A DNA stretch of 64,000 nt from Xestospongia bergquistia (taxonomy: Eukaryota > Porifera > Demospongiae > Haplosclerida > Petrosiidae). The DNA lies in NCBI GenBank assembly GCA_963965975.1, contig OZ014413.1:5342001-5406000 (forward strand), written 5' to 3'. The notes beneath the pieces are model-generated. The model was not told the DNA's origin, searched no databases, and saw nothing but the letters and a program-made list of their open reading frames with translations. Made by a program: the position numbers and the translations under genes. Of this stretch, positions 6,640-27,250 are shown one piece after another; the first letter of the stretch is position 1; each line of letters starts with the position of its first letter.

Positions 6640-7400
6640 AACATCCATCACAGGTCTGAGGATTTCATTAATACCATACTTTGTTATGTAGATTGTCTGA
6701 ACCACACACAGTAGTTGAATTGTCTTGAGAGCTGAGTGTAGATCTGATCTGATGTTATCCAAGGTGAAGTAGAGTAATCCTACAAAATAATTTTACTTTG
6801 TCAAGTACACGATTTTGTTAAAAAAAACGCACAAACCTAATTTATGGGTCTTAGTATTAGATCCAAGAGGGTTACAGACGTCCATGTCATCATAATAGAG
6901 ATGAATCTGTAAGGTCAATGGATCAGTTGAAAAGAGTGGATGTGTGAACCATCACAGTAATCACCAAGCATGCCATCTGATAAGTTATGAGGGTTGTAGA
7001 TCTACAAAAGAATTGATATTAATTATATCACATGTGAAGCGTAAAGTAATACCTGTTCCATAACACAACTATTTCTTAAGACCTTTTCAAGTGAGGATCT
7101 TAAAGGTATGTCATAGCATATGTGGTTTATTCTGCTAAAACCTGATGATTTTGGATCCAAACACCATCCCGTACCTGTTATTCTGGTTCCTATAGTAATA
7201 TAAATATTATTAATAAAAAGTAGTGAATAAAAAGTATAAATTTCTGCTCACAATGAGGCTGAATGTGTCTCTGAAATATTTCATTTGTAAATACTCTAAC
7301 TGGATACAACTGAACGGATTAAGTAAGTATTCATCAAAAATGTCAGTAAGGCTTGGAATTGACTCGGATCTATTTGAAAGTTCTGAAGAGCGCATTCTGT
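6640..7400 (-). pseudogene. uncharacterised DDE-type transposase relic, copy A
   Basis: Four minus-strand exon pieces are visible. 7254-7395 encodes SLTDIFDEYLLNPFSCIQLE. 7054-7191 (acceptor ACTATAG, donor CAG|GTATTA) reads to DIPLRSSLEKVLRNSCVMEQ. About 6840-7013 reads YNPHNLSDGMLGDYCDGS, then after a frameshift YYDDMDVCNPLGS and KTHKLG. About 6640-6786 reads LYFTLDNIRSDLRSTLKTIQ and KYGINEILRPVMD. The same blocks in the same order occur in copy B (for example FDDVEVVNPLGSYVKKHKLG), so the family assignment is internal to the window. A one-base frameshift near 6930 shows decay. The relic runs directly into the PGAM-like exon. Confidence 0.6.
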
Positions 7401-7978
7401 TTGCCGTCTCATGTCCAGTACAGTTCTTTCAACAAGTTGTTGGACATCTCCGAGTATCTCATTGACAGAAGTAAGAGTCAGTTTATGAACCTCAGCTGTT
7501 TTTAAGATGAATAATGCTGCTGATCACTTTAACTCTTTTCTAGAGACAGAGAATGAAAACTCACTCTGACTTTCAGTTGTAGAATCAGTGCCATTTTCAA
7601 GAGACCATGAACTACAAAAAACAGTGTGTCAAAATAACAACACAAGTTCAAAGTAAACAAACTAAATGAATTAAGTTTGACTAAGTAAAATTTATTTTAA
7701 CTACTGAGGTTAAAAACAACTATTATGGTTGAAACAACCAGTAACGATTAATACAAGCAAGAGTTTTAGTTTGTTTCAACCAAGAGGTACAATCAAAACA
7801 ACATGAAATACCATAAGGTTATATCTACAGTTATAATTATGTGTGAAGTAACAATTTATCTTTAATTGGAACTGAACTATCATTGATATAAACCTAAACT
7901 TTGGTTTACAGTAACAATTTGTATTAATAATTATTATAGTAAAATTAATAGAGGTTAAAAATTAGTAAGTATAACACA
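7401..7978. other. no gene recognised
   Basis: AT-rich spacer between transposase relics A and B. Short TTGAAACAAC/GTTTCAACC inverted motifs occur near 7728-7780, but I see no coding frame or complete element. Confidence 0.4.
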
Positions 7979-14069: not shown

Positions 14070-15059
14070 ATGCTTAAGTTATATGTACAACTCCAGTGCA
14101 GTTCATCAGCATTAAGTGTACCAGTCTTATGTCCTCCAACTAAATATGGGTACTTCATCCTTCCAGGAGTCCTGGGGGCCCTCCCTGGAGCTGAGCAACT
14201 GGTGCATATTCCCACCTTTCAGCAGATAGGTGAGGTCGCAACCTCACCCCTAGCTATGGGTCAGGCGAGCCAACAGACTATGGCAGGTCCATCAGCCCTA
14301 CCCACTGACACAGACATCACAATTGATCTCCCAGGGACAACTGCTGTTCCACAGAGATTAGTTAAGAAGATTTTGAATGGAGACTTTGTCGACATGTCAG
14401 AGTTACTTCCAGACTCATGGAGGGTGGAGGAAATGAACACACAGTCACTTAGCCAAAGAGGAGGCCCCCGTCGTGGCCTTGTCACAGATATCTTAATATG
14501 GCTAGAGTGTTTTGCAACCCTAGCCTCTGTCATCACATCCAAACATCCTGACAAGGCACCCCACCTCTTTGCTTACGCCAGGACGATTGTCCGAGCCAGC
14601 AGGAACTTCGAGGGCCTGGCATGGGTATCTTACGACACCAATTTCAGAAGACAAGCAGCGAACCAGAAGTCCTGGGACTGGGGCAACATTGACCCAGCAA
14701 TGTTTAACGAAGCCTTCTGTGGCAGAGCAAAACTAAAGCCTCGTTGCAAGCACTGCCTATCTGACCAGCACGAATTTCAGGACTGCCCCCTGGTACCGCC
14801 CACCACAACGGAAGTCCGACTGCCACGGGCGGGGTCCCGCCCACTTGGCAATCACCTTAACCAAAGCTATGTTGAGTTGTGTGGTTTATTTAATAAACCA
14901 GTGGCCAACGAATGTAGATACACAGATTGCAAGTACGCCCATATCTGTTCCCTGTGTCGTCAGGGCCCTCATCCAGCATCACAGTGCTCGAGGCCCCGTC
15001 GCACTCTCCTGGCGTTGCCTCCACAGACAGTCACTCCAAGGATCACCCCTAGATTGTAG
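14070..15059 (+). CDS. Gag-like protein of the Ngaro-like element
   Basis: 329 codons. Blocks typical of DIRS/Ngaro Gag proteins are visible: a LVKKILNGDFVDMSELLPDS segment near residue 98, LIWLECFATLASVI near 142, ARTIVRASRNFEGLAWVSYD near 168 and WDWGNIDPAMFNEAFCG near 200. These are followed by Cys/His clusters (CKHCLSDQHEFQDC near 227; CRYTDCKYAHICSLC near 284) that would bind nucleic acid. It should package the element RNA. The start is uncertain: the first 25 residues look unlike the family and the true start may be further downstream. Confidence 0.8.
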   Translation: MLKLYVQLQCSSSALSVPVLCPPTKYGYFILPGVLGALPGAEQLVHIPTFQQIGEVATSPLAMGQASQQTMAGPSALPTDTDITIDLPGTTAVPQRLVKKILNGDFVDMSELLPDSWRVEEMNTQSLSQRGGPRRGLVTDILIWLECFATLASVITSKHPDKAPHLFAYARTIVRASRNFEGLAWVSYDTNFRRQAANQKSWDWGNIDPAMFNEAFCGRAKLKPRCKHCLSDQHEFQDCPLVPPTTTEVRLPRAGSRPLGNHLNQSYVELCGLFNKPVANECRYTDCKYAHICSLCRQGPHPASQCSRPRRTLLALPPQTVTPRITPRL

Positions 15060-15500
15060 AAGAGTCGACCACACCAGACCTAGGCTAGAACCAATTACTA
15101 GCATTACCATGTATCACTTGAGTTACTATATTAGCAACTGACACTTCATCTGTAGTATACAATAGGTAGAATATATTTCCCGACATAATATCCTAATTGA
15201 GTTAAATTGTGAATGATCAATATCACATAGTCAATGCACTTTAATAACAGAGCACTAGTAACTTAATTTAATAACTAATAATTAATCACTTAGCACTCCC
15301 ACATGCAACTTATCCATCACGGTACAGAACATGCACAGGGCGTGATGAACAAATAAGGCTATAACATCAGCACAGTGCACAGACAGAGCTGGCAAAGCTC
15401 TATAAATACATATATATATATATATGCACATTCAGAGTTCACAATCAAGCAATTTTAGCTAGTTAGTTAGTTTATCTTTTACGCAGGCCCATATCGGTAT
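15060..15500 (+). other. Gag-pol spacer of the Ngaro-like element
   Basis: AT-rich non-coding gap with an (AT)n stretch at about 15411-15425. An AG-ended, pyrimidine-containing stretch occurs just before the pol frame (about 15478-15487), so splicing to reach pol is possible but unproven. Confidence 0.4.
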
Positions 15501-16502
15501 ATGAAGGACCTCCAAGCATTATGTTCAAGCCACTCGCCATACCCAATTGCACCAGCAATTGCACAGGTACAATCACCCCTTCAACCTTGTCTGGACCAAT
15601 GGCATATACTGCTTGCTCACCAACCAGACCAACATCTGGCAGAATACATACTGAATGGCATTCAGCATGGCTTTCGGATTGGCTTTAACTGGGGGACCCC
15701 TCTCTGCTCGGCTCGCTGGAATATCCAATCAGCATACGATCACCCAGAGGTTGTGGATGAGTATATTGCCAGCGAACTCAGCAAAGGTCACTTAGTAGGC
15801 CCACTCCCCACAGCTCAGCTGTCCAATAGCCAGTCTATTCATGTGAGTCGAATTGGAATTATTCCAAAAGGACATAACACTGGCAAATGGCGTCTCATCA
15901 CAGACCTGTCCTATCCGGAAGGACAAAGCATCAATGATGGCATAGGACGGGAATATTGTTCCTTGGAATACACAACCGTGGACAAGGTGGTAGCAAAGGC
16001 AACTGCTTTGGGTCCAGGTGCACTCCTAGCAAAGATCGATATCAAATCAGCTTATCGGCTGGTTCGAGTCCACTCATATGACCGACCACTGCTAGGTTTC
16101 CGATGGCGAGGCAAGGTTTATTTGGATGCTATGCTTCCTTTTGGGTTGCGATCAGCTCCAAAAGTATTCAATGCTCTGGCAGACACACTTGAATGGTGTT
16201 TTCATTATAGAGGGGTTAACGATGTGGATCACTACCTAGATGATTTTGTGACAATGGGACCCCCTGCCTCTTCAACATGTGCCAGAAACTTAAGAGTCAT
16301 ACACGAAGTGTCGGCCACCTTGGGAGTACCTCTAGCCAAGGACAAATGTGAAGGCCCCTCACCAAGGCTAACCTTTCTGGGCATAGAGATAGATACACAG
16401 GAAAGGGTGTTACGATTACCACAGGAGAAACTTTTGAGAGTACAGATGATTCTGACTCAATGGAAGAAGAAACGATGGTGTCGCAGGAATTGGAATCTTT
16501 AG
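15501..16502 (+). CDS. reverse transcriptase domain of pol
   Basis: 333 codons. RT blocks in order: GIIPKGHNTGKWRLITDLSY (fingers), AKIDIKSAYRLVRVH (catalytic Asp, motif A), MLPFGLRSAPKVFNALADTL, and HYLDDFVTMG, the YxDD catalytic box. LAKDKCEGPSPRLTFLGIEI follows as the primer-grip/thumb region. It copies element RNA into DNA. The frame ends 43 bases after the RNase H frame begins; real homology appears to switch frame within a GAAGAAGAAAC run around 16460-16475, so the break is either an indel or a -1 frameshift. Confidence 0.9.
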   Translation: MKDLQALCSSHSPYPIAPAIAQVQSPLQPCLDQWHILLAHQPDQHLAEYILNGIQHGFRIGFNWGTPLCSARWNIQSAYDHPEVVDEYIASELSKGHLVGPLPTAQLSNSQSIHVSRIGIIPKGHNTGKWRLITDLSYPEGQSINDGIGREYCSLEYTTVDKVVAKATALGPGALLAKIDIKSAYRLVRVHSYDRPLLGFRWRGKVYLDAMLPFGLRSAPKVFNALADTLEWCFHYRGVNDVDHYLDDFVTMGPPASSTCARNLRVIHEVSATLGVPLAKDKCEGPSPRLTFLGIEIDTQERVLRLPQEKLLRVQMILTQWKKKRWCRRNWNL

Positions 16503-17212
16503 TTGGTCTGCTGCACCATGCAGCTAAAGTAGTTGCTCCTGGACGGTCATTTTTACACCGTATGATTGCTCTCCTAAAGGGTATCCGCCACAGAAACCAT
16601 CATATCCGACTAAACAAGGAGTTTAAAGCTGACTTACAATGGTGGTTGACGTTCATGGAGACTTGGAATGGAGTGTCCGTCCTGCCTCCCCCACACCCTT
16701 CTACTCATATAGCCTCTGACGCATCAGGCTCCTGGGGTTGTGGTGCCCTCTGTAACGGTCAATGGTTTCAGTTGCAGTGGCCTACATCCTGCCAGGACAA
16801 ACATATCTCATTTAAGGAACTTATTCCTATTGTGCTGGCTGTGATGGTGTGGGGTCATGAATGGCGTGGGTCAGCCATACATTGTCAGTGCGACAACCAG
16901 GCAGTAGTTTGCATGCTTGCCTCTCGCTATTCTCGCCAGACCGACCTCATGCACCTGCTGAGATGCTTATTCTTTTTGGAAGCAACATACAGACTAACCA
17001 TCACAGCCTCACATATACCTGGCCGCATGAACACCCTAGCTGATGACCTGTCTCGTAATAACATTATATCCTTTTTCTCACAGGCCCCTTACATGCACAA
17101 GACCCCCACGCCACTCCCTCTGATGGCCCTCAACCTTCTCCTGGATCCCAAACTGGACTGGACGTCACCGTCTTGGATGGTGCTGTTCAGGGCTACTGTA
17201 GGCTTGGAATAG
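16460..17212 (+). CDS. RNase H domain of pol
   Basis: 250 codons beginning MEEETMVSQELESLVGLLHH, which continues the RT connection region. RNase H catalytic residues are seen in SDASGSWGCGAL (Asp), ISFKELIPIVLAV (Glu), QCDNQAVVCML (Asp) and TLADDLSR (Asp). It degrades the RNA strand during reverse transcription. The end, TSPSWMVLFRATVGLE, reads in another frame into the recombinase (overlap 17173-17212), so RT, RNase H and recombinase probably form one ancestral pol with two frame changes. Confidence 0.88.
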   Translation: MEEETMVSQELESLVGLLHHAAKVVAPGRSFLHRMIALLKGIRHRNHHIRLNKEFKADLQWWLTFMETWNGVSVLPPPHPSTHIASDASGSWGCGALCNGQWFQLQWPTSCQDKHISFKELIPIVLAVMVWGHEWRGSAIHCQCDNQAVVCMLASRYSRQTDLMHLLRCLFFLEATYRLTITASHIPGRMNTLADDLSRNNIISFFSQAPYMHKTPTPLPLMALNLLLDPKLDWTSPSWMVLFRATVGLE

Positions 17213-18141
17213 CGCCATCTACAAGGAAGACATATCAATCAGCTGTCAGGCGGTTTGGTAGTTTCTGCTCGAAGTATTCCATTATGAACCCCTTCCCAGT
17301 TAACGAGTCTACTTTATGCTACTTTGTGGCCTTCCTTGCAATGGATGGACTGGCACCCCAATCTATAAAGTCATATTTAGCTGCAATCTGTCATACACAG
17401 TTTGAGGCAGGACTACCAGAACCCAAATCACTGTCATCTTGCCCACGACTGAAACTCATATTGAATGGGGTTGCTAGGCAGAGAATGGAGCGTAGTCCCC
17501 CAAAGAAACCTCGCCTCCCCATATTAGCTGACACTCTTTTGGGCATATACAGGACTATGGCAGGAAAGGTGGACAGGGATACCGTCATGCTATGGGCAGC
17601 TTGTTCAATTTCCTTTTTTGGGTTTCTTCGAGCAGGGGAAATCACAGTGCCTACGCGTTCAGCATTTCAATCACATACACACCTTGCTTGGGAGGATGTT
17701 AGTGTGGATAGTGTACAAAAGCCAAAGATACTTAAGGTCCATTTAAAAGTCTCTAAATGTGACCAATTTGGGAATGGTGTAGATATATTCTTGGGACGTA
17801 TAGAATCTCCTATGTGTCCGGTATCAGCTGCATTATCATACATGGCAATCCGTGGTCCAGCACCAGGTCCTTTCTTTCATTTTCAAGATGGCACCCCTCT
17901 TACGAAAAGCCGTTTTGTCATGGCTGTCCGAGATGTATTAGGCCAGATGGGTCTAGACCAATCCCTGTATGCAGGACATAGCTTCAGGATTGGGGCAGCA
18001 ACAGCAGTGGCACAGGCAGGGGTTGAAGATTCGACCATCAAAGCCCTAGGTCGCTGGTCAAGCACAGCCTTCCTGACATATATCCAGATTCCGAGACAAA
18101 AACTCGCAGCACTCACCCCCCGTATTGGCGGACTTCAATGA
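17173..18141 (+). CDS. tyrosine recombinase of the Ngaro-like element
   Basis: 322 codons. The N-terminal SAM-like core-binding part begins GIAPSTRKTYQSAVRRF. The catalytic set is complete: Arg in FLRAGE (about residue 153), His and Arg in GHSFRIGAATA (269 and 272), Trp in LGRWSS (about 295) and the nucleophile Tyr in FLTYIQIP (about 303). It would join the circular or linear cDNA intermediate to the genome through the split repeats. No stops or frameshifts are seen inside the frame, so it may still be functional. Confidence 0.92.
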   Translation: MDGAVQGYCRLGIAPSTRKTYQSAVRRFGSFCSKYSIMNPFPVNESTLCYFVAFLAMDGLAPQSIKSYLAAICHTQFEAGLPEPKSLSSCPRLKLILNGVARQRMERSPPKKPRLPILADTLLGIYRTMAGKVDRDTVMLWAACSISFFGFLRAGEITVPTRSAFQSHTHLAWEDVSVDSVQKPKILKVHLKVSKCDQFGNGVDIFLGRIESPMCPVSAALSYMAIRGPAPGPFFHFQDGTPLTKSRFVMAVRDVLGQMGLDQSLYAGHSFRIGAATAVAQAGVEDSTIKALGRWSSTAFLTYIQIPRQKLAALTPRIGGLQ

Positions 18142-18792: not shown

Positions 18793-19092
18793 GGGCAATG
18801 GGTGGAGCACACACTCGCTCCACCCAGTCATATCACCCAAGGACATGCCTCATTTCAGAATTAATAAGTGATTGGGTCTACCATGATTCATCATTTGGAT
18901 TGACTAACACCCTAAAAAACTAGAGTAATGCATTTTAATGATTTTATGCGCCCAGCCTGGATCCTCCTTCTCCCATACTATACTGTTTCTGGAGAGCAAG
19001 GGATCAATAACAAAAATTGTACTTAATGTTTAAGGAAGGGTAAAAGTATGTCGACAAAAACCAGAGCAAACTATTATCATATCAGCATTAAT
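18793..19092 (+). repeat. B2 split direct repeat (3' end of Ngaro-like element)
   Basis: Copy of B1 ending AGCATTAAT, after which the sequence becomes unrelated (AGTAGTTTTAC). This defines the right boundary of the element. Confidence 0.88.
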
Positions 19093-19238
19093 AGTAGTTT
19101 TACACAGATTTTAAGTTAATTGTGCATAAAGTGATTAAAAATTAACATATTTTGCAGAAACAAATATTTGCGTTAAAATAATCCAAACTACAATAATTGT
19201 TCAGAAAAAGTTTCTAATCTGCAAAATGTTTTATTTTA

Positions 19239-22008
19239 TTAATTATTTCTGTACAATGACTTCATAAGTGTCACTACGTCTTGTGGAAGACGAAATTCTT
19301 CAATTGTTGGTACTGTGAAGTTGAGAACTACTTGTCCTCCATGAATCCTATCAATCCATGGCACATAATCACCATTTAGTCTTTGCCTTGATGGTTTCCA
19401 CTTTCTGCAATAAGTGCCATCATACCACGTCACTTCTATATTGCTTTCGTCCTTTGCACCTGCAACCAGAACTCGACCAATGACAGGTTCATCAGTCCAT
19501 TCATCATGGTGTATTGCAACAAAAGAGCCTTCCTTGAAAGTGTTAGATGATACAACTTTTATAAGTGCTCCTCTTTGTTGTAACTCAGAAACTGCAGATC
19601 CCCTATCAATGCATTGGTCAACATGTTCTGCTACTCGGTCTTGGTCTGTTGCTCTCCTATTTGGCCTGGTTGCTCCTCTTCTTTTTTGACCAATATAAAC
19701 CTGTAATTAGCATAAAATAATCCCAAATTTATCGAATTCTGAAAAAATATTGACTCTATGAGCAAATAATGTTAATGGTAACAGCCTATCAATGATCTTG
19801 AAATTTCAAGACAATTGCTTTCAAAGGCATATATTACATGCTATCAATGATCTTGAAATTTCTAGACAGTTGCTTTCAAAGACATATATTACATGCTATC
19901 AATGATCTTGAAATTTCAAGACAATTGCTTTCAAAGACATATATTACATGCTATTAATGATCTTGAAATTTCAAGACAATATTTTATGAAGGCACATATA
20001 ATACTTATGAATGAGGATGTTATGATGGTTATGGTTATCTTAAAAGCTCTTTTTCTCACTTTTGGTATCTCTTTATTGCTACAGGTTTGAAGTTTATCTG
20101 AGATAACTGGAGCTGGTGGTGATTTCCTGTTTGTATCTTTCAATTGGCTCAGAATATCTGTTAGAGGCCATGTACATTCAGTTGTTTCTATGAAGACAAT
20201 ATTTAAAGAGTATATTATGAAAATCTATAATTTTATTATGCAAATATGTTTATTTTTAAGCATAACGAATCCATGAATACAATTGTTTGACAAGTATAAT
20301 GCTGTTTATCGTATATATGTTCTGACCTTCAACACATTTAGCCTCCAGGATCTCAAGAAATGTTTTCCATGATGTTTTCCCTTCTTCAGACAAACACAAA
20401 TATTTAGGAAGACTATTAGGTAAGTCCAGTTTGTCCAACTTGGGTTTTAGTACAACTGGTGATAAGCCATCAGGCATCTCCTAATGAATGAAGGAAAGTA
20501 CCATCATCAACAACTTAACACTACAGTTCTGCTTCACACACTTTTAGCAAAAACAATCCAGAATTGTCCTGGGGTTCCCAAACATCATTACTCCATCTCT
20601 TGTAGTGCATTTCTACATTAATGCCATCAGCACCAGTAGTAAATCTTTGGATAAAGTAGTGTTATTGTTACGATAAATATGAGGGAATACCTGAAGATGT
20701 GAGGATAAGAATGATTATAAAGTTGATTGGCTACAGGTAAAATCCATGATTTTACATCATACATACTATCCAACACAAACACGTCACGCACTGTTTCGTT
20801 GACTTCTTTACATCCCGAGACAAGATCTATGAATAAAATATGAAAGTGGATACATTATGATTTACTTTTGGTACCTGTGACAGTAAAGGCATTGTTTTTC
20901 TTTAGCCATCTACCAATGTTCCCAAAAAGAGCATCAATGTCTTCATGAGTGTGTCCAACCATAAGAAAGCCAACTTGAACCTATAAATATATATTGTAAT
21001 ATTAAGAAATTGATGGCATTATAATACACTTACCTCAACGAAAATTTTGAGTTGTACTAGTAATGATAAAAAGGTCAGAACACATCAATTTTTATTCTCT
21101 CTAGCTGTGTTATCAAGCTGCAAGAATAGCTTTTTAGGCAAAGGTCTCTCAGATTGTATTAACTTAGTGAAATAAATTGAAATAACCTGTACCAAAAAAG
21201 AAGTTGATTGCAAATCAAAATAACCTCAATGGTATCCAATAACAAAATTGGATTTACAAAAAAATTATAAATGAGTCAAGTAACCATCTTTGCTTAGCTA
21301 ATGTAGACATTTGATTGAAATAGCTGTGGTAGCCTAGTATATCCAAAGCTGTAACATTATGAATAAAATAGCAACATTGCTTTCCGCAGCCATTAATTTT
21401 CAAGACATCAAAAGGATTAAAACAATTTGATAATGAATACTCTAACAGATTAAAAGCCATAATATTTCAAATATTTCAATGTAATATCTTACCAGAAAAA
21501 AGACTATTTGGTGTGCACGAGTCTGACTCACTATCAGTAATGTTGTTACTTAAAAAAGACCATTTATGATGTGGCTCTTGAGAGATTATAAAAAAGTAGC
21601 ATGTTATATACATGTGTAAAATAATAGGTTACCTGTTAATAAATTGTCACTTAACTGAGGCTCGCAATCAGTAGTGTAATTTATCACAGCAGATTATAAT
21701 TCTCTTAGATATGTGGTCAACAGAATCAAAGAGAATTATTAAGTTTTAATATGCTAGATGTATCAACATACCTTGAGTGTTGGTGGTCTAGACCTCTTTG
21801 ACCGCTTTAGGTCAACTCGGGTCTCATTATTTTTAGTTTTAATAGAAGTTGAATGAAGGATCTTACTTTGTGGAGTCAAAAAATCTATACTATGTAGAGA
21901 TATTTCATCAGTTCGAGCAGATGTAGTTTCAGTGGAGGGAAATAACTCAGGGCTAAAAATGTCGAAGTCAACTCTGTTGTTGGCTGATTCCAAAAACACA
22001 GCCAGCAA
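19239..22008 (-). pseudogene. multi-exon DUF7869-type transposase relic
   Basis: Minus-strand exons, 5' to 3': 21772-21987 (Ser/Thr-rich, ending KRSKRSRPPTLK before a GTATGT donor); 21254-21460 (TLAKQRWLLDSFI); about 21040-21170 (LPKKLFLQLDNTARENKN, in-frame TGA at 21085-21087, then FLSLLVQLKIFVEV); about 20880-20982 (VGFLMVGHTHEDIDALFGNI, the signature of DUF7869 proteins); 20700-20825 and 20560-20660, which join cleanly (HIF|RFTTGADGINVEMHYKRW); 20256-20477; about 20060-20190; and a last exon 19239-19701 with SFVAIHHDEWTDEPVIGRVL and WYDGTYCRKWKPS to a stop. These are DDE-like transposase-derived proteins of animals. The TGA makes this copy non-functional, although most splice sites look intact. 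Confidence 0.65.
19786..20005. repeat. 55-bp tandem repeat, four copies
   Basis: The unit starting CTATCAATGATCTTGAAATT recurs at about 19786, 19841, 19896 and 19951 with few differences; the fourth copy diverges after about 35 bases. Each unit contains the palindrome CTTGAAATTTCAAG. It lies in an intron of the DUF7869-type gene. Confidence 0.85.
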
Positions 22009-22041
22009 CAGTACCAGTCCTGTCTACTATTCAGACATCAC

Positions 22042-22063
22042 TTTTTTTTTTTTTTTTTTTTTT
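22042..22063 (-). other. genomic poly(A) tail
   Basis: 22 consecutive A on the minus strand, 10 bases beyond the polyadenylation signal, as expected from a reverse-transcribed mRNA. Confidence 0.85.
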
Positions 22064-22073
22064 CAATGAAAAT

Positions 22074-22083
22074 TTTATTTATT
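22074..22083 (-). terminator. overlapping polyadenylation signals
   Basis: Two overlapping AATAAA hexamers (22078-22083 and 22074-22079 on the minus strand). The first overlaps the Rep stop codon (TAA at 22079-22081). Confidence 0.8.
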
Positions 22084-23893
22084 CAAGAACATTGTCAAGA
22101 AATAAATACAAATCATCATTTATAAGACCTCTATACAATAGAAGTTCATGTAAGTTAGCAATAAATTGAGTAACTAAGAAATGTTCAAGTTCATGAGTAG
22201 TTCCAATGACAAATTCTCCAAATGAGTCTGCAAATCTTCTGTAATGTGCTTCTCTGTCATCTGGTGGAAAGCAGTCAGCCATTTGTCTTGCAGGAATGTT
22301 ACTGCATATGATGACTAAGTGAGAGTCAAACTGCATACTTCCATATTTCACATTACATATGAATTCTCCAGTACTCAGAATGTTCTTATAAGTTTCAGAG
22401 ACAGTTGCCATGTTGAATGGATTAGTTGGTTGACTTGGATCATCAATCAGTACTATTGGTTGATTCATATAGCCATCCCAATAATCTTTGTTGAATCCAT
22501 GAGCTTTGTAGTAAGTCGTGATGTGAGGATATGCATTTCTGATTCTTTGAAGTATTTTGTTGAAAGCATATGTCTTGCCAATTCCAGTAGGTCCAGCTAC
22601 ATAGCAACACATTGTCTTTTCTTTTCTTCCAGGTCTCAGATGCATATGAGATAATATATGTTTGCTCATAGTAGGAAATGAGTCCAATATCTCCATGTAA
22701 CTTGTTCCTTTTCTAATTAGTTTTATTATTCTCTCCAATTTCGATTCTTTCTGCATTTTGTCTATTAGTTGATGTTTGCTTGGACCCTTGTCCTTCTTGT
22801 GCATGTAACTCCTGTATCTTTGGAGAGCATGGTTGATACTCAAGATCCCAGCTGAAGGTTTTGTTTGGATAGGCGATGCCCATACCACGCCTTTTACTGT
22901 CCTTAGAGTGCATATCCCGAGGTTTCTCCTCTTCCTCGTCTTGAATTTTACCAGGCAATGGCAGTGATTCTTCCTGTCCGCTGCATACTCTTCTGCCCCA
23001 ACCTCTACGGCTTCCACGTGAGAGAGCTGATCTCGTATCTTCGATATAATGTTCTCCCTTGGTAACTGCCTTGTGTCCACAGTGATCGCAAAGTAAGTAT
23101 TCTGACTTTGCTGTTGATGAGGACATTTGAGGCCAGGTTGTGATTCCCCATCTAATTCCTTCGAATTTGATTGTGACTTTTGCCAAGGTGGTGATTTCCA
23201 TGACACTGGTGACGAAGTTGCTGGTGACGTTCTCTGCGTGCCATAGTCCAAGTTGCCAGGCAGTGGTGTCTCTTCCGTCAATATACTCGAGTTGCAAGGG
23301 CTGCATAGCGGGGAGCTGTCCGTTCTCACTGGCAACGTTGCTTCCTGCTGAAAATCCCTTGATGTTGTACATGGGCTCTTCGTTGATGATTTTGAGTGCG
23401 TTTCCGAGTTCCATTCCGTTCTGTAGAGAAGCTCCTCTAATAAGTTTTGCCGTGGCTCCCGGAAGATTGGAGATGTTGTATCCGTAGACGACGGCATTAT
23501 TGCTTCTAAGCAGCAAGGGGCCTCTGCTGTAAGGAGCGGCGAGGACCAGGATCTCTGAACCTGCTGTGACATATGCATCTGGGAAGTAGAATGTGAGGAA
23601 TCCTTCCCATTTTTCGACTTTGTAGGTCTGGAACATATTGGCCATAGGAAGTCGTCCTGTAAGGTCGTTGTTGATCTCGAAGTTGATGTTTCCGGTGGCG
23701 ATGTTTGTTGCTGATGTAAGGTTGATGAGTTCTCTGGTGACGTATATGAACTCACTGGTGATGGACTGATTACTACTGGGTGAGTTGACGATGTACCCGC
23801 CAATCTGCTGTCCAAAGGTGGTGTCTCTGACTGCATCTGCCACGAATTCTGCCATTCCAACTGCTGTTCAACCCTTCTGTTAAACTGATCCAT
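22079..23893 (-). CDS. rep: CRESS-DNA-virus-type replication protein (Rep)
   Basis: The minus-strand frame is open for 604 codons from ATG at 23893, and upstream to a TTG at 23905. The C-terminal ~340 residues are a Rep: HUH motif I-like YFAITVD (about residue 266), HCHCLV metal-binding motif (about 310-315), YMHKK with the nicking Tyr (about 363), then an SF3 helicase with Walker A GPTGIGKT (about 434-441), Walker B PIVLIDD (about 479-485) and motif C VIICSN (about 527-532). Rep nicks and unwinds circular ssDNA genomes for rolling-circle replication. The first ~265 residues are Ser/Thr/Pro-rich and are the overprinted frame of the capsid, so they may not be a true domain. No Met lies between about residue 133 and the HUH start. 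All key residues are present and no stop interrupts the frame. Confidence 0.82.
   Translation of the reverse strand: MDQFNRRVEQQLEWQNSWQMQSETPPLDSRLAGTSSTHPVVISPSPVSSYTSPENSSTLHQQQTSPPETSTSRSTTTLQDDFLWPICSRPTKSKNGKDSSHSTSQMHMSQQVQRSWSSPLLTAEAPCCLEAIMPSSTDTTSPIFREPRQNLLEELLYRTEWNSETHSKSSTKSPCTTSRDFQQEATLPVRTDSSPLCSPCNSSILTEETPLPGNLDYGTQRTSPATSSPVSWKSPPWQKSQSNSKELDGESQPGLKCPHQQQSQNTYFAITVDTRQLPRENIISKIRDQLSHVEAVEVGAEEYAADRKNHCHCLVKFKTRKRRNLGICTLRTVKGVVWASPIQTKPSAGILSINHALQRYRSYMHKKDKGPSKHQLIDKMQKESKLERIIKLIRKGTSYMEILDSFPTMSKHILSHMHLRPGRKEKTMCCYVAGPTGIGKTYAFNKILQRIRNAYPHITTYYKAHGFNKDYWDGYMNQPIVLIDDPSQPTNPFNMATVSETYKNILSTGEFICNVKYGSMQFDSHLVIICSNIPARQMADCFPPDDREAHYRRFADSFGEFVIGTTHELEHFLVTQFIANLHELLLYRGLINDDLYLFLDNVLE
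22713..23855 (-). CDS. cap: capsid-like protein of the viral element
   Basis: 380 codons from an ATG in good context (G at -3, G at +4). Residues 1-245 have alternating hydrophobic beta-strand character without membrane segments, for example FQTYKVEKWEGFLTFYF and SEILVLAAPYSRGP, consistent with a single jelly-roll capsid of small DNA or RNA viruses; this is inferred from pattern, and I cannot name the closest family. The last ~135 codons (Arg/Glu/Lys-rich, with a CDHCGH motif) overlap the Rep HUH domain in another frame and may be a shadow or a genuine basic/acidic tail. The frame is offset so that Rep lies in +1 relative to it. No internal stop occurs. Confidence 0.6.
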   Translation of the reverse strand: MAEFVADAVRDTTFGQQIGGYIVNSPSSNQSITSEFIYVTRELINLTSATNIATGNINFEINNDLTGRLPMANMFQTYKVEKWEGFLTFYFPDAYVTAGSEILVLAAPYSRGPLLLRSNNAVVYGYNISNLPGATAKLIRGASLQNGMELGNALKIINEEPMYNIKGFSAGSNVASENGQLPAMQPLQLEYIDGRDTTAWQLGLWHAENVTSNFVTSVMEITTLAKVTIKFEGIRWGITTWPQMSSSTAKSEYLLCDHCGHKAVTKGEHYIEDTRSALSRGSRRGWGRRVCSGQEESLPLPGKIQDEEEEKPRDMHSKDSKRRGMGIAYPNKTFSWDLEYQPCSPKIQELHAQEGQGSKQTSTNRQNAERIEIGENNKTN

Positions 23894-23924
23894 ACAGACT
23901 GACAACTACAAGGCCAAAACCGTC

Positions 23925-23932
23925 TTTATATA
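23925..23932 (-). promoter_or_regulatory. TATA box of the viral element
   Basis: TATATAAA on the minus strand, with TCAGT (initiator-like, about 23902-23906) about 25 bases downstream and the first ATG at 23893. Spacing fits a Pol II core promoter driving Rep and capsid from one transcript with a very short leader. Confidence 0.6.
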
Positions 23933-24087
23933 GAGTCCCCACACCTTTTTAATGAATTTTTGATGAGGTGTGAAAGACGTTCAACAACAAGAAGAGAACT
24001 AGATTCTCCAACAGTGTATTGAGGATCTAAGTCATTAGAAGTACAATGACTATAATTAACAACAAAGGATGGAGAAGAATCAGACAT
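23926..24087 (-). CDS. 53-codon ORF upstream of the viral promoter
   Basis: Minus-strand ATG at 24087 opens MSDSSPSFVVNYSHCTSN..., ending at a TAA that is part of the TATA box. Its start overlaps the candidate target-site octamer. It may be a remnant of an upstream viral ORF or chance. No domain is recognised. Confidence 0.25.
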   Translation of the reverse strand: MSDSSPSFVVNYSHCTSNDLDPQYTVGESSSLLVVERLSHLIKNSLKRCGDSI

Positions 24088-24372
24088 AATCGATCACTAT
24101 ACTATGTTACACCTGAGATCCAACGACTGAACTACGTCTGTAGATGTATTTGACGTAAGACTCATGTGGTTGATGTAACAAATACACATGCGTGAATAAT
24201 TTCACACATTCTTATATTTTGACACGAGTACAGTACTATCTCTTATGCAGACGTGTCAAGTTTCTGTTACGTACCATGTCCTTTTCCAGCATACCTTGAT
24301 AGTTTCTATTGTCGACATCTGTCAAAACAGTGGTGGTTTGAGCCGGGTCAGGACTAGCGACTTTACTTACAG
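24088..24372. other. no gene recognised
   Basis: Spacer between the viral element and the plus-strand gene relic. No signal beyond a pyrimidine-poor acceptor (CTTACTTACAG) at its right end. Confidence 0.3.
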
Positions 24373-27250
24373 AAAGGAGGACGACCGTTATGTGGGGTTG
24401 GCAAGTACGAAAAGAAAAAAGTTGGTCCAATAGTAAATGTTAGAACACACCGTCAAAATGGCAAGCAGTATTTAGTGGTAAGTTGTTTCAATGTACTTGC
24501 TATTATTATCTGTCACACTAACTATTATATATTACTTTAGTTTCAGAGCACATCTGAATCTCCACAGCCTCAAGCTCTCAAAGTTGAAAATTTTGATGTT
24601 CTACAAACAACATTACCAAGTTGTTTGATGATGTGAACTCTCCTGAAATGTTTATAAAGACCTGGCTTAAAAAAGTCAAGCCTTTTCTGTCTACGGATGG
24701 TATTTATTCTCCTCCTACAAGTTCTGAAGAATTCATTGCAACCAGTTAGACACAACCGTCATCAGTTGAACTTGTACCTACATCTGGAGTATCACAATCT
24801 TCTGGGGAAACTCATAGTGATAAATCTCTTTCTAGGAAACGACAGGCAGTGTCACAAGTGAAACATTTCTCAAAGAAAAAGAAAGACTTGGATGAAATTG
24901 TTACTGACTTAGGTATAGAAGATGTTGGCAAACACTTCATAGGTAATATTGTCTTACTAGAGTTGTGGTTTGATTTTACATATATATTAATAGGACAATT
25001 CAAGTTACCAGTCACATGTTTAGTGCAGCCTAATCTAAAACGTCAAATACGCTCACCAGATCTTCATTTTGTTAAATGTTTACGTGATGAAATGCTTAAA
25101 AACCCAACACTGGATGTAGCTCCTTTGGTAGCCTTAGTTGTATTACCAAATAAAGAGAATTTTAACCCCGCTCACGCAGAGGCATGCATACAAGTATGAA
25201 ACTATTGGAGGCAATTATTCTAGGATTGTGCTACAAGAAATAATTAAGGATGAATCGTGTGCCCATCTACATGATATCTTCAGTCATCGTTTAGTTAGTG
25301 TTTACCATGGTCTAACAGATGAACAGGCCGAGCTATAGCTCACAGGCATAACAGAACCACTGAATTCACCAATAAAATGACTACTCAAGATAAGGTATTA
25401 TATCACATTCACTTACACTTTCATATTAATAAATAATGTTAGCTGTTCACAAAAGATTTCTACATTATGTGTATAGCAGAACATGTAAACTGTTATTTAG
25501 TCTTTTTTCATTTTCAATGTTAATTTAAGGTGCATATATGTTGAATGAGGTTATATACTCTGAGTGATGTGGATCTATCTGAAGAACCACCTGAGAGAAC
25601 AACAGGAGGGACTCCTGTTCTGCCACATTAATGATGACAGTAAATTTGTTTTGTTATAAATTGCACCATTATTTTATTTTTCTGATAATAGAAAAACAGC
25701 TAGATGAGAACATGATATTTCTTCTTGCAACGCTGCAAAAATCACAATACAATGTCCTACTGGATATTTTCAAAAAATTTGAAGAAGGAACCTTAGTGAG
25801 GCCTAATAAGACCAATAGTCACATAAAATTTGATTGCAAAGGCAGTAATTTTAGAGGACTTCGAAACCTTGATCCAGAGAGTATTTTAAAACTACTAAAT
25901 GAGATTCAGAGTGGGTCCCCCTGCCTTTGCATATGCTAAATGCCAGATGCCAACAATTAAAAAAATTGAGAGATCTAAAGACCAAGTTTGTGGAGTTTTG
26001 TGGGTTGGCTTCTTGGGAAGATGCTCAAGCTGCATATCCGGATTTTGCAGATGAAGAAATGTTGAAGACTAGATTCATATCCTTATCTAAGGATATGCAA
26101 CCATTGGCTGATTATTGCCAAAAGGCAATGAGGTAAGACCATAAATTGCATGTGTATTATTGTTTTAGAGCAATATATTGCCAGATACTTGGCTATTATA
26201 ACCAGACATGGGGTAATAATAATAGATAATAGTAATAGTAATAGTAAAGATTACATATTTCAAAGTAATAGTAATAGTAATAGTAATAGTTGGTCAAGTA
26301 ATAGTATTAGTAATTGAAATTATGTAACCAGTAGTGTGTCAGTCAAATGTTGGTTTAATTGTGTTTATTTGAAGTGTGACATTCTTTTCACTGCATCAAT
26401 GCTTTTATCAAATCTATGTACCCAAAGAGCACTCAGATCTGGGTGGCATATATCTGAAAAGCCCTAGTGGCACTTATGCTTGTTTTATGAATATGGAATT
26501 GGACTCTATCTCTTATTCAAATGTGAAGAAAATGTTACCAGAATGTTCCGGCTTTGTTGTGTCAACAATTACTGTCTGTAATGGCAAAGAGAGCTTAAAT
26601 GAGGTACAAATTAAAGACAAATGTTCTTGTATATGTTTTTCTGACACTACTATATAATCCTTACGAATCAACTCTATTTCAGATCACTAGTTTTACTCAT
26701 TTATTAAAGGCAATTAACACAGCAGCTGGATTAGGAATGTATTTCATGCTGTACCATATTCAACTTGACTTCACTTTACTGTATGAAGCTCAAAAGTTAC
26801 TGATAGATGGAGGTATGACGGTGGAGGTAGCTTTTATCAAAGAATGAAATCAGAAAATAGTATGTTAAAAATTGTATATTAAATGTAATATTTATTTTAA
26901 TTTATTATAAAGGTTTGATACATAAACCAGTACTTGCTCCAGTTCTTATTGCTGCTCATCATGTTAATGGGCATTTGCCATTATTGAAGATTGATAATAT
27001 CTTCAATGATGAAAATGATTTTTATAAGCTCACTAATTCCCAGTTGCTGGCCTCCTGCAATCATGCAATGTATTAAACTAGAAAGTGATGAGGAGAGAAA
27101 CAAGCATTGGTCCCTCCTATTCGTAATGAAATTGTGCGTGTCCTTGCAAGCAACATGTTTTGCCACAATCAAATCCAAAGAAAGAGTTCTGCTCAAGTGT
27201 GGCAAAAAAAGCTTGTCAAGAAATATAAGTTTTTGAGGGATATGGGGGGA
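24373..27250 (+). pseudogene. multi-exon gene relic, unknown function
   Basis: Plus-strand exons between plausible AG and GT sites. 24373-24474 reads KGGRPLCGVGKYEKKKVGP and RTHRQNGKQYLV before GTAAGT. 24540-24945 includes KKKKDLDEIVTDLGIEDVGK. 24994-25194 reads FKLPVTCLVQPNLKRQ and LDVAPLVALVVLP. 25195-25338 has YETIGGNYSRIVLQEI and HGLTDEQAEL, then a stop. 25690-26131 has FRGLRNLDPESILKLLNEIQ and DMQPLADYCQKAMR. 26390-27250 has further pieces (YFMLYHIQLDFTLLYEAQKL, SAQVWQKKLVKKYKFLRDM). The 'GGNxSR' block followed by 'GLTDEQA' recalls uncharacterised animal proteins often linked to transposons; I do not assign a function. In-frame stops near 24630 and 24748 indicate decay. Confidence 0.45.
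26213..26314. repeat. AATAGT microsatellite
   Basis: Interrupted hexamer/trimer array (TAATAG)n in the intron following the exon ending near 26131. Confidence 0.85.

Follow-up and report, generated by a model that had tools for sequence, protein, structure and literature searches.

The window analysed here comprises 64,000 nucleotides of Xestospongia bergquistia contig OZ014413.1 (assembly GCA_963965975.1, positions 5,342,001 to 5,406,000 of the forward strand). On its minus strand it carries an inserted viral piece encoding a capsid and a replication protein, Rep, of the type found in circular, Rep-encoding, single-stranded (CRESS) DNA viruses. The initial annotation had placed this element at 22042..24087; the intact Rep and capsid frames on one strand, here the minus strand, held for 22042-23979, and bases 23980-24087 proved to be host DNA. 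That annotation was also right about two intact frames and overlooked their nested double coding, which is the more interesting feature.

Read along the minus strand, the viral piece begins with an imperfect hairpin of 7 + 3 pairs (23930..23979; DNA fold z-score −2.3, 7 of 200 shuffles folding equally well), and a second copy, L007, ends at the same place to within 2 nt. A TATA-box-like sequence, TATATAAAG, lies at 23924..23932 and has the same position in L007. Taken from its first ATG, the Rep open reading frame (ORF) has 604 codons (22079..23893) and comprises a Ser/Thr/Pro-rich N-terminus of ~260 residues (19% Ser, 12% Thr, 10% Pro), an HUH nuclease, and a superfamily 3 (SF3) helicase, whose PF00910 domain was matched by profile at 22298..22606. 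The capsid ORF of 380 codons (22713..23855) lies entirely within the open Rep frame, shifted by one frame. Its jelly-roll core region occupies 23100..23855, across which the Rep frame is open, and its C-terminal tail, 128 residues from YLLC (22713..23099), overlaps the Rep HUH domain. An AATAAA polyadenylation-like signal was read by eye at 22074..22079, ten bases before a run of 22 A (22042..22063). Between the A run and host DNA is a 68-nt segment (21974..22041) with a hairpin of 12 pairs plus one mismatch (DNA fold z-score −3.3), which was matched once in the genome by DNA search. The integrated piece thus has hairpins at both ends; by eye, it contains no recognisable nonanucleotide.

The insert as a whole (21974..23979, minus strand), including the 68-nt terminal segment and the poly-A run, was delimited using two further copies of the surrounding host segment, L020 on contig C4 and L021 on contig C3, both of which lack it. 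In L020, 38 bases stand where the window has the insert, which has thus supplanted 38 nt of host DNA; inspection by eye showed no target-site duplication at its edges. L020 is 96.3% identical to the window over five pieces (3,105 bases), or ~95.2% once the three largest of nine left-out pieces are added by arithmetic on the alignment. The host flank at 23980..24268 is 96.9% identical to L020, and L021 is ~84% identical to the window in the flank adjoining the insert. Based on these insert-free copies, the element is truly integrated in an animal chromosome. As judged from the same identities, integration is later than the split of the window and L020 host copies, a duplication now ~95-96% identical, unless L020 lost the insert. 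The recent integration envisaged in the initial annotation is thereby supported. The host is an animal, since Wnt domains occur at three places in the assembly (9 matches; 0 of 14 control genomes positive). The possibility, raised at the outset, that Rep belonged to a contaminant contig does not hold for a contig of 11.5 Mb within an assembly (146 Mb, 21 contigs) that contains Wnt genes; contig context, empty sites, and metazoan genes together rule out a contaminant or assembly artefact. Both host-virus junctions and an empty site, as expected of an endogenous viral element, were found. The youth of the insertion explains the intact frames, intactness being expected of a young insertion. Host DNA at 19088-21973 and 23980-24379 is duplicated, further copies lying on C4 and at another place on C3, and an ORF starting at 24087 is, by eye, broken by the insert.

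Domain and fold matches substantiated the proposal of a CRESS-like Rep with HUH and SF3 motifs beside a capsid-like ORF. Rep carries the HUH nuclease and the SF3 helicase with motifs intact, as is characteristic of Cressdnaviricota, and matches the Reps of Vientovirus and porcine circovirus 2 (PCV2). The capsid is a jelly-roll that matches circovirus capsids and agrees with the single jelly-roll of Cressdnaviricota, based on a low-confidence structure model used for fold class alone. Among the PDB matches of this model, circovirus, nodavirus, picornavirus, and tombus-like capsids have almost equal Z-scores. Searches of Pfam, PHROGs, and PDB sequences returned no capsid relatives of use, and the capsid profile matched no PDB sequence, tombusvirus or other. 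One weak Pfam match to a ricin-type lectin (E 0.013), from one member of seven aligned capsids, was taken as chance. Scans of IMG/VR free viruses with Rep, two capsid alignments, a Rep alignment, and a second Rep from L007 (Rep485, see below) yielded no confirmed relative, and a scan of GTDB genomes yielded none. Searching the genome for PF02407 gave no match; the controls of that search likewise gave no match.

A protein collection contained seven further capsid relatives: P0003 (85% identity to the window capsid, its sequence being that of L007), P0004-P0008 (56-65%), and P0009 (31%). The contigs encoding P0004-P0008 and P0001/P0007 measure 1.5-5.1 kb. The tails measured from YLLC are 117-160 residues long in P0004-P0008, 128 in the window, and 125 in L007; by homology, those of P0004-P0008 probably overlie Rep as well. 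Four of the Rep-like database proteins, P0001, P0012, P0013, and P0014, begin only at or after the last nuclease motif, a trap for gene calling. P0013 is 85% identical to the window Rep and occurs on contigs up to 232 kb, and P0011, 83% identical to the Rep of the distant element L008, is encoded on an 859-kb contig of another assembly. Given these contigs, such elements appear to occur in additional genomes as well.

Further copies were sought in the genome using Rep, capsid, and DNA queries, a search that the initial annotation had recommended and that recovered L007, L009, the distant L008, and the fossil L006. L007 (C1:16.41 Mb) is 93.3% identical over 1,769 aligned bases and is truncated near the Rep end. 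L009 is a 235-base fragment of 97% identity, and L006 is a Rep fossil with three stops. L008 (L008:3286-4801, C1:374.3-375.8 kb) has a Rep of 28% identity in the genome search and 26% in the alignment, a 5'-truncated capsid, an intact Rep frame, and the same capsid/Rep overlap; it too has AATAAA, then an A-rich tract. Directly behind this tract (L008:4900-5010) is an inverted repeat that by eye resembles a miniature inverted-repeat transposable element.

Homology in L007 starts at the same viral base, within two, as the window insert, in another host context. The common 5' end of two separate insertions suggests a defined end, such as a Rep nick site. L007 is a composite insertion in which the capsid/Rep piece is combined with ~50 unassigned bases and with a further Rep, intact and different, of 485 codons, and it separates host codons that are adjacent or nearly so in the host paralogues L041 and L042. 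The second Rep, Rep485 (L007:5499-6956, C1:16416998-16418452; PF00910, 37.5 bits), follows the truncated capsid/Rep piece, and the composite as a whole interrupts a host coding exon. Upstream of it is a stem-loop (L007:5200-5225, z-score −3.5), the loop of which we take to resemble a rolling-circle origin. L007:285-1165 and 6957-7719, together with L041 and L042, are host genes of a membrane-protein-like kind that form a local family; the one broken by the insertion has no Pfam match and is 52-53% like two neighbours.

The start codons point to how two nested frames might be expressed. Judged by the general Kozak rules and TATA spacing, the Rep AUG is weak (T at −3) and the capsid AUG 38 bases on is strong (G at −3, G at +4); both, and the TATA-like box, occupy matching positions in the window copy and in L007. 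During viral transcription, one transcript would arise from just past the TATA-like box. Some ribosomes would initiate at the first, poorly placed AUG (23893) to produce Rep, whose first ~260 residues would be an overprinted and probably disordered extension. Most would pass by leaky scanning to the well-placed AUG at 23855 and produce the capsid, its C-terminal tail coming from the second frame of the sequence that encodes the HUH nuclease. The predicted outcome is little Rep and much capsid from one mRNA, and the inserted copy would simply not yet have decayed. One mRNA with leaky scanning is the simplest reading and appears the likeliest. On balance, we lean towards the view that a CRESS-DNA virus of an undescribed lineage recently left part of its genome in the chromosome, with nested-frame, leaky-scanning expression in the virus. 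We advance more tentatively, and with slightly more doubt than belief, the broader proposal of an animal CRESS lineage with its whole capsid gene inside the Rep gene, 1.1 kb of dual-coding sequence, and leaky scanning, which entered the genomes of several hosts.

Both frames are free of stops over 1.1 kb in the window and in L007. We evaluated this using a plain null in which synonymous codons were shuffled within the 262-codon capsid core (5000 shuffles) and stops were counted in the Rep frame. The window Rep frame had 0 stops against a mean of 5.0, a value of 0 being reached by 0 of 5000 shuffles, and the L007 Rep frame had 0 against 4.9 (P 0.0006). The third frame, serving as control, was near expectation (9 versus 11.0 in the window, 10 versus 10.5 in L007). 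Similarly, 0 stops were present in the capsid frame along the initial 130 codons of Rep, against 6.8 in the window and 7.2 in L007 (0 of 5000 shuffles each), with 7 versus 9.8 and 8 versus 9.0 in the third frame. The capsid frame of L008 likewise had 0 stops along 180 codons of Rep, against 10.0 (0 of 10000 shuffles). A strict null also preserved codon-junction dinucleotides; it loses much of the signal and fixes part of what makes a stop. Under this null, the capsid frame over Rep remained significant in the window (0 versus 3.1, P 0.0045) and L007 (0 versus 2.95, P 0.0075). For single-coding controls, the stops seen in the two other frames were 11 and 18 in the Rep-only part (12.5 and 20.3 expected), 11 and 52 in Rep485 (13.0 and 56.1), and 5 and 22 in the L008 Rep C-terminus (5.0 and 20.1). 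The capsid-tail frame is well supported; the Rep N-terminal extension is not significant under the strictest null.

Several results weigh against the preferred reading. Under the strict null, the Rep frame over the capsid was not significant in the window (0 versus 1.5, P 0.076), L007 (0 versus 1.2, P 0.19), or the 124 capsid codons of L008 (0 versus 0.3, P 0.69), nor was the capsid frame over Rep in L008 (0 versus 1.2, P 0.16). Even by plain shuffling, the L008 Rep frame over the partial capsid had 1 stop against 2.25 expected (P 0.24). Nulls with many predicted stops in the Rep frame proved ill-fitted: drawing capsid codons by Rep-only or Rep485 usage gave 18 or 8, and base composition alone gave 16-17. 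These were set aside and given no weight because they overpredicted the control frame, with 16-27 stops in the third frame against 9 and 10 seen. Between the window copy and L007, 81 of 756 bases differ in the capsid core, against only 13 of 499 in the Rep-only part and 13 of 378 in the overlap, where there is also a 9-base gap; this higher divergence of the core counts against double coding, which should slow change. Nine of the 13 differences in the overlap with HUH fall at Rep third positions; thus, the capsid tail is the less constrained frame in the overlap. In the Rep-only part, 11 of the 13 differences are at third positions. The tails of the capsid relatives end at differing points, and in P0009 the initiator Met is followed by N, which places a stop in the Rep frame there. 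Finally, the A run is at odds with plain DNA integration.

Other features of the comparison are as follows. The capsid-core differences are distributed 30/20/31 over capsid codon positions 1/2/3. Five of the 81 would singly stop the Rep frame, approximately the 5.2 expected by chance; in all five cases the codon carries another change as well, and the 46 codons with a single change include no stop. Rates of evolution are similar in the Rep extension, where 213 of 261 residues are identical, and in the capsid core, where 222 of 262 are. In addition, Met before I, T, N, K, or M in the capsid would force TGA in the Rep frame, and 0 of 38 internal methionines in 8 capsid cores precede these residues (background 0.287). 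This pattern is suggestive only, because related sequences share contexts and because of the P0009 initiator Met.

Later in-frame Rep ATGs occur at capsid nt 20, 278, 284, and 359, of which the first three are common to both copies and would give shorter extensions. The Rep frame has no ATG between capsid nt 359 (503 in L007) and 1052, the latter being beyond the HUH motifs. With no ATG shortly before HUH, Rep must start upstream or be spliced, frameshifted, or non-ATG initiated. It is conceivable, at perhaps half the weight we give the preferred reading, that the virus and overlap are the same but that Rep arises through splicing, or through a +1 ribosomal frameshift close to where the capsid core ends, the open Rep frame being mostly a by-product of codon usage and order. 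The missing ATG fits this, as does the strict null, which needs no selection on the Rep frame over the capsid. An acceptor-like CAG is present at capsid nt 752 in both copies, the P0011 ORF continues from capsid-like into Rep sequence in one frame, and the accessible part of a crucivirus survey describes 36 genomes with apparently spliced Reps (PMC7468197). However, a crude pattern scan detected no donor-like site common to both copies (window −39, 101, 527, 868; L007 282). Moreover, a frameshift before HUH would not require an open capsid tail, yet all 7 capsids with YLLC keep it open over 117-160 residues, and the plain synonymous shuffle is clearly beaten.

Under either route to Rep, the window copy could be a processed retrocopy, in which a polyadenylated viral mRNA was reverse-transcribed and inserted by a host long interspersed nuclear element (LINE). 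The AATAAA 10 nt before the 22-A run at the 3' end is what such an origin would leave, and L008 shows the same signal before its A-rich tract and is without its 5' part. Nevertheless, we consider a retrocopy unlikely. The insert begins 47 nt upstream of the TATA-like box, and a second, independent insertion has the same start point. Neither hallmark of LINE-mediated retrocopying was found: the A run is separated from the host junction by 68 nt of non-host sequence, and 38 nt of target were lost with no duplication seen.

The uninterrupted frames could also reflect a domesticated host gene, with Rep and/or capsid retained by host selection. Consistent with this, 20 of the 26 Rep differences between copies in the Rep-only part and the overlap are at third positions, and the L008 Rep has its 83%-identical relative in another assembly. 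That third-position pattern is, however, equally expected if the divergence arose between two viruses prior to insertion. The insert postdates the 95-96% host duplication; among the other copies, L007 is cut short and has a different Rep behind it, L009 is a fragment of 235 bp, and L006 has three stops. Domestication is thus very improbable.

Elsewhere in the window, 14070-18141 contains a reverse transcriptase ORF and a weak phage-integrase-like ORF, with a local rise in G+C content (0.46-0.47). By gene content, we take this region to be DIRS-like.

The element resembles CRESS-DNA viruses (Circoviridae, Redondoviridae) in its HUH and SF3 (PF00910) Rep and jelly-roll capsid. It differs from them in having capsid and Rep on the same strand, a capsid ORF wholly inside the open Rep frame, and possibly ~260 extra residues at the Rep N-terminus; identities to BFVD entries were 12-19% among the 50 matches listed. 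In Circoviridae, Rep and Cap are ambisense; the same-strand, overlapping genes of the element do not fit this arrangement. In the accessible parts of two studies, endogenous circoviral and CRESS elements are mostly Rep, sometimes intact (PMC3198968, PMC6372831), and on one reading of its columns, the total line of Table 1 in Liu et al. gives 302 Rep and 3 capsid sequences (PMC3198968). Like these, the window element is a viral Rep in a eukaryotic chromosome, but it also keeps an intact capsid. The retention of both genes, initially regarded as exceptional, is indeed uncommon but has a precedent in kind in the full-length tandem circovirus genomes of cypriniform fish mentioned in the second source (PMC6372831). 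Cruciviruses combine a CRESS Rep with a capsid, and 40% have both genes on one strand; the accessible part of that paper does not mention nested overlap (PMC7468197). RepE1 cressvirus integrations in sea anemones likewise join cressvirus pieces to non-bilaterian animal DNA but differ, in the part available, in their papillomavirus-E1-like Rep and hepevirus-like capsid (PMC11071296). Among the titles listed by a literature search, with most subscription papers outside its coverage, there was no endogenous CRESS element of sponges and no Rep-nested capsid.

Based on these comparisons, the window element was inserted not long ago and belongs to a new CRESS lineage whose gene plan is unusual. Most endogenous CRESS fossils are pieces of Rep; here, a readable capsid reveals the gene plan of a lineage without a named virus in the collections searched. 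If the nesting is true, two unrelated essential proteins, one of them containing a catalytic nuclease domain, are encoded by one stretch of DNA over nearly its whole length, and the lineage would provide a strong natural test of the joint optimisation of two frames.
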